A DNA stretch of 64,000 bases from Mucilaginibacter dorajii. Lineage in GTDB: Bacteria; Bacteroidota; Bacteroidia; Sphingobacteriales; Sphingobacteriaceae. How positions within the stretch are numbered: position 1 is the stretch's first letter; the number at the start of each line of letters is the position of its first letter. The DNA is taken from NCBI RefSeq assembly GCF_024808255.1, contig NZ_JANTYS010000012.1, positions 62,001 through 126,000 on the forward strand. The letters run 5' to 3'. The notes below the pieces were generated by a model. The model was not told where the DNA came from. It made no database searches and was given only the letters and a program-made list of their open reading frames with translations. The translations under genes and the position numbers were made by a program. Positions 22,692 through 28,793 of the stretch are shown one piece after another.

Positions 22692-23057
22692 ATGGACAAC
22701 AGGCTTTATCGGTTTATTGCCTTATTTTTTCTGCTTTTTCCGGGCTTTTCAGCTTCGGCAAGGGGAGGATTATACCATATTAACCATACTGACGATAAAA
22801 AATCTTCAGTATCGGCTGCTACAGCGCATCATCTGCCTTATAACCCTTACAGTTATGAGTTTATTTTAAATGGCGCGCCATCACAATTACTAAACCTGCA
22901 GCAACACCGGGGTTCGCACTCCATGCAGGGTATTTATAACAGCCCTAACTTTTACTCCATACATTTTAAGTACCTCAGTTTTATTTGCGGTGGGGGCACC
23001 GGCGAGCTATCGCGTTTCCGCAAACTCATCCTTTTTCCATTCCACGATTTCTGGTAG
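22692..23057 (+). CDS. Hypothetical secreted protein (121 aa)
   Basis: Unrecognised. The ORF has a good signal peptide (LYRFIALFFLLFPGFSASA, cleavage near residue 24) and a mature part with no known motif. That part is rich in His, Ser, Tyr and Asn and ends in LILFPFHDFW. It is encoded 237 bp before the ammonium transporter on the same strand, with the hairpin triplet in between. An alternative frame starting at 22687 encodes a different 60-aa peptide and is less likely. Real but orphan, or a decayed gene; I cannot decide. Confidence 0.5.
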   Translation: MDNRLYRFIALFFLLFPGFSASARGGLYHINHTDDKKSSVSAATAHHLPYNPYSYEFILNGAPSQLLNLQQHRGSHSMQGIYNSPNFYSIHFKYLSFICGGGTGELSRFRKLILFPFHDFW

Positions 23058-23129
23058 TAGCAAAAGCAATTTTATGCGCGGTGTGCTGATTACATGCCCG
23101 TATTTTATTGTTTTTTAAAATTTAGTTTA

Positions 23130-23254
23130 AAATACTGAACGGCATTTTGATTGGGTGCCCTGTAAGTAATTTTTAATACCCGAAGGCATTTTGATTGGGT
23201 GCCTGCGTGTATAGTTTTTATACTGCCCGGTATTTTGATTGGGTACCGGGCAGT
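23130..23254 (+). promoter_or_regulatory. Three tandem 44-bp repeats, each a hairpin with loop TTTTGATTGGG
   Basis: Identical 11-nt loops TTTTGATTGGG begin at 23145, 23189 and 23233, exactly 44 bp apart. The closing stems differ but stay paired. They are GGCA/TGCC (23141-23144 with 23156-23159), AGGCA/TGCCT (23184-23188 with 23200-23204), and an 11-bp ACTGCCCGGTA/TACCGGGCAGT (23222-23232 with 23244-23254). The change from GGCA/TGCC to GGTA/TACC is compensatory. The third hairpin is strong and followed by GTTTTAATTATTTTATT, terminator-like, 40 bp before the amt start. This looks like a leader regulatory element, possibly an attenuator or a site for an RNA- or DNA-binding protein. It matches no family I know. 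Confidence 0.8.
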
Positions 23255-23294
23255 GTTTTAATTATTTTATTAACTACTCCCTAAAACCCTAAGC

Positions 23295-24605
23295 ATGAAA
23301 AAATTCATACCATTTGGCGTACTATTAGTTGTAATTGTACTTGCCCTTATATACCCTTCAAACCTTGTAACTACTATTAAAGAAAGTAAAATTGATAGTG
23401 GCGATACCGCCTGGCTATTAGTGAGCACCGCCCTTGTACTGATCATGACACCCGGTCTGGCCTTTTTTTATGGCGGCATGGTTAGCAAAAAAAACGTACT
23501 ATCAACCATGATGCAAAGCTTTGTTTGCATGGGCGTTATTACCATATTGTGGGTAATATTCGGCTTTAGCCTTGCATTTGGTAAAGACGAGTTTGGTGGC
23601 TTTATAGGTAACCCCGGCACCTTTTTTATGATGAAAGGCATGCTTGGCAATGATGTATGGCCTTTAGCTCCTACTATCCCATTGGTGTTGTTTGCCATGT
23701 TCCAGCTAAAATTCGCGGTTATTACCCCTGCCCTTATCACAGGTGCATTTGCCGAGCGAATCCGCTTTAACTCGTACCTTATTTTCCTTTGCTTGTTTAT
23801 GATATTCATCTATGCCCCCTTAGCACACGCTACCTGGCACCCGGATGGCTTCTTTTTTAAATTAGGCGTGCTTGACTTTGCAGGTGGTACCGTGGTACAC
23901 ATGAGCGCCGGCTGGGCTGCTTTGGCATCGGCACTATATTTAAAACAACGTAACGAAAAAGCACACTCACCTGCCCGTATCAGCTATGTGCTATTAGGCA
24001 CAGGTTTATTATGGTTTGGCTGGTTTGGTTTTAACGCAGGTTCGGCTTTGGGTGCAAATCCGCTTGCTGCTACTGCTTTAGCTACTACCACTACCGCATC
24101 GGCCGCTGCCGCTATTTCATGGATCTTTTTTGATATGATGCTTGGCAAAAAACCATCGGTTTTAGGTGCTTGTATAGGCGCGGTTGTAGGCCTGGTAGCC
24201 ATCACTCCTGCCGCTGGCTTCGTAACCATATCAAACTCATTAATTATAGGTATAGTTGCCGCAATGGTAAGTAACCTGGTAGTGATCTGGAGAAGTAAAA
24301 CCAGCATTGATGATACGCTTGATGTATTCCCTTGCCATGGTGTAGGTGGTATGGTTGGTATGTTAATGACAGGTATTTTTGCCCACGTTAATGTTAACGC
24401 TGGCAATACTACCGGTAACGGTTTATTTTATAGTGAAACCAAGTTATTCTTTGTACACCTTATTGCGTTGGTAGCGGTATCGGCATTTGCTTTTGTAGGT
24501 TCATATATTTTGTTGATCATTACCGACAAAATCAGCAAGCTACGTGTAACACCAGAAGAAGAGGCTGCAGGTTTAGATATCAGCCAGCACGACGAAGAAC
24601 TTTAA
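23295..24605 (+). CDS. amt: Ammonium transporter (Amt/MEP/Rh family)
   Basis: A 436-aa inner-membrane ammonium channel/transporter with eleven predicted helices. Family signatures are DTAWLLVSTALVLIMTPGLA in helix 1, FYGGMVSKKN, the pore histidine region GGTVVHMSAGWAAL, WFGWFGFNAGS, and the second pore histidine in DTLDVFPCHGVGGMVG. It ends in a short cytoplasmic tail (SKLRVTPEEEAAGLDISQ). No glnK/P-II gene is adjacent. The three-hairpin leader directly upstream is probably its nitrogen-dependent control element (inference). A terminator follows at 24792-24822. Confidence 0.95.
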   Translation: MKKFIPFGVLLVVIVLALIYPSNLVTTIKESKIDSGDTAWLLVSTALVLIMTPGLAFFYGGMVSKKNVLSTMMQSFVCMGVITILWVIFGFSLAFGKDEFGGFIGNPGTFFMMKGMLGNDVWPLAPTIPLVLFAMFQLKFAVITPALITGAFAERIRFNSYLIFLCLFMIFIYAPLAHATWHPDGFFFKLGVLDFAGGTVVHMSAGWAALASALYLKQRNEKAHSPARISYVLLGTGLLWFGWFGFNAGSALGANPLAATALATTTTASAAAAISWIFFDMMLGKKPSVLGACIGAVVGLVAITPAAGFVTISNSLIIGIVAAMVSNLVVIWRSKTSIDDTLDVFPCHGVGGMVGMLMTGIFAHVNVNAGNTTGNGLFYSETKLFFVHLIALVAVSAFAFVGSYILLIITDKISKLRVTPEEEAAGLDISQHDEEL

Positions 24606-25731: not shown

Positions 25732-26799
25732 TTAGAATGCGTAAACAGCAGCTAAAATAAATTGAGATGCTGATTTTGTTGCAGTGCCGTCACTTTTAAC
25801 AAAGGCATCGATGTTTTTAGTATGATCTAACCTAACCTCCGGAATAAAGGTTAACGGACCAGCTTTGATATTTGCAGTTAAAGTTGATGCCAATACAGAG
25901 TTACCTGGGGCAATACCTATATCAGAACCACTGTTGGTAGCTTTTGCTTTAAAGTACTCTTCGCGCAAGCCAAAAGTAACCGTTTTTGAAACAGCGAGTT
26001 GAGGATACAATGCATAACCGTAATAGTTAAGCGCACCGTTTCCTGATTTCCGGGCAGCGTTTAATCCCAATTTAAAGGCATCAGTAATTTGGTAAGCAGT
26101 GGTTAAATCCAATACAGTACCAGAGTATTTACCACTTGCAAGGTTAATGTAAGCAGTCCATCCTTTAACAGGTGCTAAAAATAACTGGGCACCAAATGTT
26201 GAAACTTCCGGCGTGCTTGAAGTTGAACGATAAGTGTTCCAGGTATCGTTAAATGCACCTGCCATTAAACTCACTTTATCAGAGAAAGCATAAGTAGCTT
26301 TGAAACCTGCATTCTGGAACGGACCAGCGCTGAATAAGTAAGAAGTTGAGTAGTTAAAGTTGGCTGTCGGGCTAATTACCTCGTAACCAACAAATGTTGC
26401 CATATAACCGGCTGTCAGGTTAAATTTATCGGTAACATCATAGCTAACATATAAATTCTGGATGTGATAGCTTGAAGTACCTGCCGGAAGGCCACCTAAT
26501 GTTGCATCAGGAATTGATTGCTCCTGGCCACGCGGCCCAAAAGACATTTCGCCTACAAATGACGCTTTACCAACTTTTTTCTTCAGACCTAAGTCGATCA
26601 TACCAATAGAAACAGAATTTTGATCTGATCCGAAAGAGGTTTGAATATTTGGTTTGTTTGAGAAATCATTTTTAAAATAAGTATCTACCGAACCGTAGAT
26701 AACCAAAGGCGCATCAGACGTGGTTTTTACAGTGTCCTGGGCTTTAACCGTAAAAGCCGCAATGCTAAAAACTGATAAAAGTAAAAGTGTTTTTTTCAT
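25732..26799 (-). CDS. Outer-membrane beta-barrel porin (OmpL/BBP2-like)
   Basis: A 355-aa outer-membrane protein. A signal peptide ends near AAFTVKAQ (residue 21). The rest is alternating amphipathic beta strands such as APLVIYGSVDTYFKNDFS, FNLTAGYMATFVGYEVISP and VTFGLREEYFKAKA. It ends in FILAAVYAF with the C-terminal Phe typical of barrel insertion. It fits the putative beta-barrel porin family 2, often encoded beside ammonium transporters in this phylum. It is followed on the minus strand by its own terminator and preceded by amt2, 371 bp away. A role in letting ammonium or small nitrogen solutes cross the outer membrane is inference. Confidence 0.85.
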   Translation of the reverse strand: MKKTLLLLSVFSIAAFTVKAQDTVKTTSDAPLVIYGSVDTYFKNDFSNKPNIQTSFGSDQNSVSIGMIDLGLKKKVGKASFVGEMSFGPRGQEQSIPDATLGGLPAGTSSYHIQNLYVSYDVTDKFNLTAGYMATFVGYEVISPTANFNYSTSYLFSAGPFQNAGFKATYAFSDKVSLMAGAFNDTWNTYRSTSSTPEVSTFGAQLFLAPVKGWTAYINLASGKYSGTVLDLTTAYQITDAFKLGLNAARKSGNGALNYYGYALYPQLAVSKTVTFGLREEYFKAKATNSGSDIGIAPGNSVLASTLTANIKAGPLTFIPEVRLDHTKNIDAFVKSDGTATKSASQFILAAVYAF

Positions 26800-27170
26800 G
26801 ATAACGATTTAATTGATTTGATTTTGATTAGGGTTGAACAAAGCTTTCCCATTAAGCCCGGTTTTACACCTGGCTTCAGGTAATTCTCAATAAAATTTCT
26901 TGGTTATTTTTAGGGTTGCTATTGATAGCAAACAACCTGCAATAAATCAGGAAGGTGTATTAAGGGCAGCTTTTTTCATGGTAACAGTTTGTTTAATTGT
27001 GGATTGATTGGGTTGATTGAAAATATTTTAAGCTTCGGCTGGCTAATAAACTAATACACAACATAGCTGTTATTAAAGCCGGGCATAAAGTTGTTATTAT
27101 AAAATACCTGGTGTAGTTGGCTGGCTATGTCGGTAACGCAACCAACCACACAAGGTACTGTTGTATTATA
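26800..27170 (-). other. Intergenic region with a micro-ORF duplicating the porin start
   Basis: At 26947-26979 on the minus strand there is a ten-codon ORF (MKKAALNTPS, stop TGA). The bases ahead of it resemble those ahead of the porin ATG (CATGrTAAC, a T-rich run, then GATTG/AGGGTTGA). It may be the decayed start of a duplicated porin gene or a leader peptide. TTGATTGGGTTGATTG at 27004-27019 echoes the loop word upstream of amt. Confidence 0.45.
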
Positions 27171-28793
27171 TTATACTGCAGATGGAGAGGTTACACCTTT
27201 ATCAAAAAGGCCGCTTAAGCTGATCTCATCATCCTGAGGTGGGTAAACTTCGATACCGTGATCAAATACGTCGATACCGCCGGCACCTGTTTCACCTTCT
27301 TCTTCGATACGTAATTTCCATGGATGACCTAATTTGTTGATGATAAACATCATTACAAAAGTTACCACAAATACGGCCAATGTAATAGTTAAGCTACCAA
27401 TGAATTGCGCTTTTAAAACCCCAAAACCACCACCGTAAAATAAACCGGCTACAGGAGCAGAGTTATCAGCACCGGTTGGGCCGGTAGCACCGTACTGACC
27501 AGATGCAAATAAACCTAATGATAAAGTACCCCAAATACCGCAAAGGCCGTGTACAGATACTGCACCAACCGGATCATCAATACGGAACCACTCAATAAGG
27601 TAAACACCTGCAAATATTACAACACCTGCAACTGCACCTAATAATATAGAACCCAGTGGGCTAACCCAGTAACAAGGGCAGGTAATAGCAACTAAACCAC
27701 CTAAGAAACCATTGATGGTGAAAGCCAAATCAAACTTGCCTTTAGTTGGGCCAAACCATAATGCCATAAGCATTGCGGCAAAACCGCCGGCACAAGCCGC
27801 AAGTGTAGTGTTGGCAGCAACGCGGCCAATACCTTGCATATCCATTGCAGACAAAGTAGAACCAGGGTTAAAACCATACCAGCCAAACCACAGGATGAAA
27901 CCACCCACAGCAGCAACTAATAAGTTATGACCAGCAGGTAATCCACCTTTTTCTTTATCGTCCCGGGCAAAGATCCTACCCAACCGTGGGCCTAATACCA
28001 TTGCACCTGCCAGCGAAGCTACACCACCAATTGTGTGTACCACTGTTGAACCGGCAAAATCGCGGAAAGGCTGAGCGCTCAGGTGAGCAAAAATGCTTGA
28101 AGTACCCATCACCGCTAAGAAACCATCTGGTCCCCAGGCCCAGTGACCAATAATTGGGTAAATAAAACCTGTAATACCTATACTGTAAAGGATATCGCCA
28201 CGGAAGCTTGTACGACCGATCATTGCACCAGATACAATGGTTGAGCAAGTATCAGCAAAGGCGTATTGGAAAATCCAGTGAGCCAATACCGGGATACCGG
28301 TTGAACCGTAAGTATCAGGCGTATTTTGAAGGAAAAACCAGTTGGTGATGGTTTTACCATCGGCACCCAAACCGCCCCATCCAATAAAACCATTACCGTT
28401 ACCAAACATAAACGCGTAACCTATAGCGTAAAATAACAAACCACAAAGGCAAGTATCAAAAATACACTCCATAAGTACGTTCACTGTCTCGCGCTTGCGG
28501 GCAAAACCTGCTTCAAGCATAACGAAACCTGCCTGCATACCAAATACTAAAAAGGCAGCAACCAGTGTCCAAACAGTATTAACTGTGTTAATTAACGACG
28601 TTTCGTGAGCGGTATACGTTTCGGCAGCATGTGCTTTTGTACCAAAAATACCTGGTAAAACCATCATTGCCCCGAAAACGAGCAACAAGCCCACCATTTT
28701 TCCTGTAAAAATGGTAGCACCCAGCGCCCATTTCTCACGTGTCAGCTGTCGGACTGAACTTAGGAAGTTGATTTTTGTAGAACTTACTTTCAT
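27171..28793 (-). CDS. amt: Ammonium transporter, long form with N-terminal extension
   Basis: A 540-aa Amt of a different subgroup from the first. It carries about 60 extra N-terminal residues with a hydrophobic segment (VGLLLVFGAMMVLPGIFG) ending in TKAHAAE, which could be a cleaved signal or an extra helix. The core then runs TVWTLVAAFLVFGMQAGFVM, EAGFARKRE, the first pore histidine in STVVHTIGGVASLAG, WFGWYGFNPGS, and the second in VSVHGLCGIWGTLS. The acidic cytoplasmic tail (about 60 residues, EEEGETGAGGIDVFDHGIE) is longer than usual. It is divergent from glutamine synthetase across a 611-bp gap. No glnK gene is beside it. Confidence 0.94.
   Translation of the reverse strand: MKVSSTKINFLSSVRQLTREKWALGATIFTGKMVGLLLVFGAMMVLPGIFGTKAHAAETYTAHETSLINTVNTVWTLVAAFLVFGMQAGFVMLEAGFARKRETVNVLMECIFDTCLCGLLFYAIGYAFMFGNGNGFIGWGGLGADGKTITNWFFLQNTPDTYGSTGIPVLAHWIFQYAFADTCSTIVSGAMIGRTSFRGDILYSIGITGFIYPIIGHWAWGPDGFLAVMGTSSIFAHLSAQPFRDFAGSTVVHTIGGVASLAGAMVLGPRLGRIFARDDKEKGGLPAGHNLLVAAVGGFILWFGWYGFNPGSTLSAMDMQGIGRVAANTTLAACAGGFAAMLMALWFGPTKGKFDLAFTINGFLGGLVAITCPCYWVSPLGSILLGAVAGVVIFAGVYLIEWFRIDDPVGAVSVHGLCGIWGTLSLGLFASGQYGATGPTGADNSAPVAGLFYGGGFGVLKAQFIGSLTITLAVFVVTFVMMFIINKLGHPWKLRIEEEGETGAGGIDVFDHGIEVYPPQDDEISLSGLFDKGVTSPSAV

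Follow-up and report, generated by a model that had tools for sequence, protein, structure and literature searches.

Tandem hairpins with a conserved loop in the leader of the ammonium transporter gene amt in Mucilaginibacter

Genomic organization of the amt leader

The window, the whole 64-kb stretch of DNA (64,000 nucleotides) analyzed here, encodes an ammonium transporter, amt, which is presumed to be the regulated gene, and directly upstream of it a small gene (Table 1). The product of the small gene matched no Pfam or NCBIfam family. The intergenic region contained, in this order, a terminator-like hairpin, a conserved TTTAGTTTAA box and three hairpins carrying the loop TTTTGATTGGG, followed by amt. 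The nearest relative was a Mucilaginibacter with an amt 98% identical to that of the window. A second ammonium transporter (540 aa), adjoined by a BBP2 porin, was located at 25732-28793 on the minus strand, and the hairpin covariance model had no match in this region. In several Mucilaginibacter records, full-length relatives of the second transporter and the BBP2 porin were found close to the first amt.

Table 1. Features of the amt locus (positions in the window)
Feature	Position	Strand	Description
Small gene	22692..23057	+	ORF, 121 aa, secreted-looking by eye
Terminator-like hairpin 3' of the small gene	23062..23116	+	Loop CTGATTA 23086-23092
Conserved TTTAGTTTAA box before first hairpin	23121..23130	+	TAnnTTTG-like
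Hairpin 1	23133..23168	+	Stem GGCA/TGCC, weak outer TACT/AGTA; loop TTTTGATTGGG 23145-23155
Hairpin 2	23176..23212	+	Stem AGGCA/TGCCT, outer ATAC/GTAT; loop TTTTGATTGGG 23189-23199
Hairpin 3 (terminal copy)	23220..23256	+	13-pair stem; loop TTTTGATTGGG 23233-23243
amt, ammonium transporter, 436 aa	23295..24605	+	PF00909 E 2.4e-117; TIGR00836 above its cut-off

An earlier note on this DNA had described three identical-loop hairpins before amt, and these were confirmed, with the TTTTGATTGGG starts spaced 44 and 44. The region 23128-23258 folded at -49.6 kcal/mol compared with a shuffled mean of -31.4 (z -5.04), and none of 200 shuffles was as low. The three copies were of different quality. Hairpin 3 scored 64.8 bits with the covariance model in the window (E 1.1e-14), and its best fold lengthened the stem by three U-G pairs into the loop. 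Even at an E cut-off of 5, hairpin 2 was absent from the covariance-model matches in the window, and the stem of hairpin 1 was weak outside GGCA/TGCC. The compensatory stem changes reported in the earlier note are present within the window but small (GGCA/TGCC versus GGTA/TACC), and the strong evidence for them came from relatives. The exact 44-bp spacing also proved not to be conserved: over the leaders, 12 of the 17 successive pairs were spaced 43 to 50 and the other five 161 to 208.

The full hairpin pattern GGNATTTTGATTGGGTNCC had three exact sites in the 7.16-Mb genome, all at this locus, so that a dispersed repeat of the REP or MITE type was rejected for the window's genome. The bare 11-mer was common genome-wide, with 16 forward and 12 reverse sites compared with 9 and 8 for a reversed control, a modest excess of 28 over 17.

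Distribution of the element

The small gene was identified in 47 of the 149 genomes of the genus, and all 47 of these had amt downstream of it in the same orientation. Hairpins were present in 37 of the 47 gaps between the two genes, with one copy in 22 leaders, two copies in 13 and three copies in two; in every element-bearing leader the small gene was the direct upstream neighbor of amt, both on the same strand. The other ten leaders (L090-L099) belonged to the ten lowest-scoring small proteins. Among 17 listed amt genes of at least 80% identity with no small gene detected, 15 were retrieved, and all 15 were without the hairpin on visual inspection and given the absence of a strong model match. 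Because these 15 and the ten hairpin-free leaders lack the element, it is dispensable for amt. Several of the 15 showed an apparent diverged small gene with an FPFHxFW end, and a similar ending was apparently also present upstream of more distant amt genes (by eye). One of the 15, L199, contained the word TTGATTG and no such hairpin. In four of the hairpin-free leaders (L091, L092, L096 and L097), a CAATCA word complementary to part of UUGAUUG was located roughly 70-80 nt before the start codon.

The covariance model R1 matched 47 of the 149 genomes at E up to 0.1 and 37 at 45 bits or more, the latter being the same 37 whose leaders built the model. Weaker matches within the genus included second copies and palindromes on both strands. 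A 38th leader outside the model set, L171, carried the hairpin twice, together with the TTTAGTTT box and the loop CTGATTA. The element sat between the small gene and amt in all 37 strong-match genomes and in L171. Loss of pairing or of the loop from orthologous leaders had been named in the earlier note as one observation that would speak against the element; the claim withstood this check in the 37 leaders and in the 38th.

The list of copies was obtained by a loop-pattern search, to which the loop-lost L084 was added by eye, and may miss upstream copies with decayed loops. Mapped on the Amt tree, which had weak inner branches and was used solely for this history, the copy number can be seen to have changed several times. 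The last stem ended approximately 25-42 nt upstream of the start codon in 29 leaders; in the other eight the distance was 117-215 nt. Roughly 80-180 nt of extra leader DNA was located between the hairpins in L058, L060, L061, L067 and L070, and before the start codon in L056-L058, L064, L078, L080, L081 and L086, with the hairpins intact in both groups. Some of these extra pieces had GAATCAAGA / TCTTGATTC-type inverted ends, like those of small mobile repeats.

A two-mismatch pattern search matched at least 110 of the 149 genomes, mostly at the rate expected by chance, and a reversed control behaved similarly. Two other hairpins in the genus were taken as probable chance matches, one of 39 bits in G077 with the loop AUUUGAUUGAU, away from amt, and one of 34 bits in G038 before another gene, presumably an aminotransferase.

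Outside the genus, the exact pattern GGYATTTTGATTGGRTRCC was searched in the genomes of 84,980 species and gave 30 stretches, 11 from Mucilaginibacter and 19 from other organisms. All 11 from Mucilaginibacter were located between the small gene and amt. The other 19 lay inside open frames, 167 to 1024 codons long, on either strand and are read as chance coding matches; nine of them belong, by title or family, to Flavobacteriaceae. A covariance search of 301 genomes of the family yielded matches in 18 at E up to 0.01, and 14 of these belonged to the genus. The four outside it reached 36.7 bits or less, and two of their alignments resembled other strong hairpins. At the phylum level, one of 395 genomes matched at E up to 1e-4, the window's own. 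Both searches used stricter filters, which lose weak matches. In the genomes sampled, no match of 45 bits or more was found outside the amt leaders of Mucilaginibacter.

Covariation of the stems

Thirty-two distinct terminal copies with a 15-pair stem (480 cells) were aligned as A1. Paired bases occupied 95.4% of the cells, and 12 of the 15 pairs showed compensatory changes on both sides. When one side was slid by 1-3 columns, the paired fraction fell to 28-52%. The covariation was 0.424 compared with 0.233 in shuffled alignments, and none of 500 shuffles was as high. Across the leaders the strength of the terminal hairpin ranged from -19 to -29 kcal/mol.

The 65 cells that were not Watson-Crick pairs comprised 43 G-U, 4 A-C and 18 others. 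These counts are of sequences and not of independent events; G-U was nonetheless distributed over 12 of the 15 pairs. Since selection on DNA predicts similar numbers of G-U and A-C, and selection on RNA of the opposite strand predicts the reverse, the molecule under selection is amt-strand RNA. Judged by this substitution pattern, the element works as RNA in the amt sense and not as a DNA operator. G-U in the outermost pairs suggests that transcription starts upstream of those pairs.

The 17 distinct upstream copies (A2) displayed an identity of 0.985 in the loop and 0.97 in the inner stem, compared with 0.63 and 0.43 in the outer arms; these copies were collected by the loop pattern, which biases them towards intact loops. 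As loop and inner stem are near invariant and the outer arms drift, each copy is apparently used through its loop. The three hairpins are thus a real, selected RNA element, in agreement with the earlier proposal of a structured RNA whose stems covary while the loop is conserved.

Conservation of the loop

The loop core UUGAUUG, lying within UUUUGAUUGGG, was kept in 53 of 54 copies, with L084 as the exception. The pairwise identity of the 9-nt loop was 0.97, compared with 0.49 at the fourfold sites of amt from the same 37 loci. The bases 3' of the core varied (GGG, GGA, GGU, GAG or GCU), and most of them can pair as U-G or U-A with the U's 5' of the core. The best folds usually formed a pair between G and the first U of the core, leaving the five nucleotides UGAUU open and no open heptaloop; those of L087 and L088 had 11 nt open.

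The word YUNR is a U-turn loop word with a role in RNA-RNA recognition (PMC6562991). It was present as UUGA in 53 of the 54 amt-hairpin copies and as YUGA in 34 of 37 small-gene hairpins, and the loop core might be read as a U-turn heptaloop. The complement YAATCAR was found at no position common to six or more of the 37 loci. An intramolecular partner of the loop was rejected on this ground, and any RNA partner probably lies outside the locus.

The neighboring hairpin and the upstream box

The terminator-like hairpin of the small gene had a loop YTGATTA conserved in 34 of 37 leaders, and UGAUU was common to this loop and those of the amt hairpins. Its 3' end (A3) was TTGTTT in 33 of 33 rows, followed by TT in 29 (together TTGTTTTT). 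TGATT was found in none of the loops of 24 other perfect hairpins of the window (both strands, stems of at least eight pairs). By a rough estimate, chance would produce this sharing in a few per cent of cases, which is suggestive only. The CUGAUUA loop may also resemble the anticodon loop of tRNA-Ile.

TAGTTT preceded the hairpin in 36 of 37 leaders and was TAATTT in L088. The TTTAGTTTAA box resembles the consensus TAnnTTTG (PMC9723704) and is a possible -7 box. A core promoter within the loop was considered as well, as TATTTTG resembles the TAnnTTTG or TAnnTTGY boxes (PMC9723704), but it was rejected because the GGCA and GGGG copies lack the TA.

Comparison with known RNA elements

None of the 4227 families of Rfam release 15 matched the 64-kb window at its gathering score, consistent with the earlier statement that the element matches neither glutamine nor other riboswitch families. 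Seven sub-threshold matches were obtained at 23050-23300, the highest with 19.8 bits compared with a gathering score of 141. ANTAR-target leaders carry hairpins in tandem whose loop bases are conserved, and they often precede nitrogen genes; in this respect they are similar to the amt element. The ANTAR target is a pair of hairpins with six-base loops in which A1 and G4 are fixed, whereas the core of the amt element is UUGAUUG and only one hairpin is present in 22 of the 37 leaders, so this assignment was rejected.

The glnA and Downstream-peptide RNAs (RF01739 and RF01704) are glutamine riboswitches (PMC2864571), and neither model matched. Like the amt element, in cyanobacteria they are leader RNAs before nitrogen genes including ammonium transporters (PMC2864571), but the amt element is a single stem with one conserved loop, so far from Mucilaginibacter only. 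The YUNR loops of sense/antisense RNA pairs such as hok/Sok share with it the word Y-U-N-R (CUGA or UUGA), able to expose the following bases for pairing (PMC6562991); in contrast, the amt loop recurs within a metabolic gene's leader and has no conserved complement in the locus. A search of the open-access literature, with subscription journals outside its coverage, gave no description of such an RNA element before amt in Bacteroidota.

Interpretation

We consider it probable, with moderate confidence, that the hairpins are a cis-acting loop array in the amt mRNA leader which is read by a trans-acting RNA or protein. Each hairpin would present UUGAUUG on a stem that may change in sequence as long as pairing is maintained, and the array would serve as a multi-site landing pad. 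The candidate factor may be a base-pairing small RNA with YAAUCAR or a loop-reading RNA-binding protein, and once bound it would determine how stable the amt mRNA is or how well it is translated, presumably in response to nitrogen supply, a signal suggested by the identity of the amt gene. Given the distance between the last stem and the start codon, masking of the start site is unlikely, and an effect on stability, or control through a bound factor, is a better fit.

A tentative and rather unlikely extension joins CUGAUUA and UUGAUUG into one code, Y-UGAUU-R. A single trans-acting factor of Mucilaginibacter would then read two to four loops between the secreted-protein gene and amt, with the number of sites tuning the response; such a reader could be a small RNA under nitrogen control or a new RNA-binding protein that recognizes the loops.

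Among the alternatives to a loop array read in trans, the hairpins could be passive stems that stabilize the 5' end of the amt mRNA and have no specific partner. The TAnnTTTG-like box just 5' of the first hairpin and the maintenance of pairing under sequence drift are both consistent with this, but passive stems do not need a loop of 97% identity where fourfold sites retain 49%, and they leave the weak upstream copies with near-invariant loops unexplained. We regard this explanation as improbable.

A metabolite-sensing leader, either riboswitch or attenuator, would respond to glutamine or another signal through a last stem that stops transcription before amt. The downstream ammonium transporter gene, the strong terminal hairpin and TGTTTTAATT directly 3' of it in the window favor such a leader, and the earlier note had likened the last stem to an attenuator. 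The strong stem and the T run stand for the window, but the comparison with relatives weakens the attenuator: of the 32 terminal copies, 2, that of the window included, had TTTT within eight bases 3' of the stem's C-G pair, and 4 had it with one extra base counted, in contrast to TTGTTTTT at the small-gene hairpin in 29 of 33. An intrinsic terminator or attenuator was therefore rejected as the general reading. A near-perfect stem with a short loop would also offer little space for a binding pocket, and no riboswitch of Rfam matched. A leader of this kind has a low probability.

It is similarly doubtful, and slightly more so, that the region is the source of a small RNA with seed loops, or a sponge, acting in trans, so that its position before amt would be incidental. 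Identical loops across the hairpins may resemble seed arrays, and the loop is conserved. In most leaders, however, the last hairpin is not followed by a clear U run, and the constant position between the small gene and amt (37 of 37 strong-match genomes and L171) does not look incidental.

A DNA operator array, with sites for a transcription factor about four helical turns apart, agrees with the spacing of 43-50 bp between the tandem inverted repeats in 12 of the 17 successive pairs, but it is very improbable, since the arms vary around a constant asymmetric center (the reverse of a dimer operator), five pairs are spaced 161-208, and the excess of G-U over A-C (43 to 4) speaks against the DNA-binding-protein array offered in the earlier note.

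The element is compact and under strong selection, and it occurs in dozens of species as natural variants, having one, two or three copies or, in one case, a lost loop. These features should make it well suited as bait for catching a new RNA-binding protein or a small RNA, and the copy-number variants form a natural series on what tandem sites contribute. The natural loop-lost variant, L084 of genome G130, retained its stem with the loop UUUAAAUAAA, and its upstream loop CTGATTA was retained as well.
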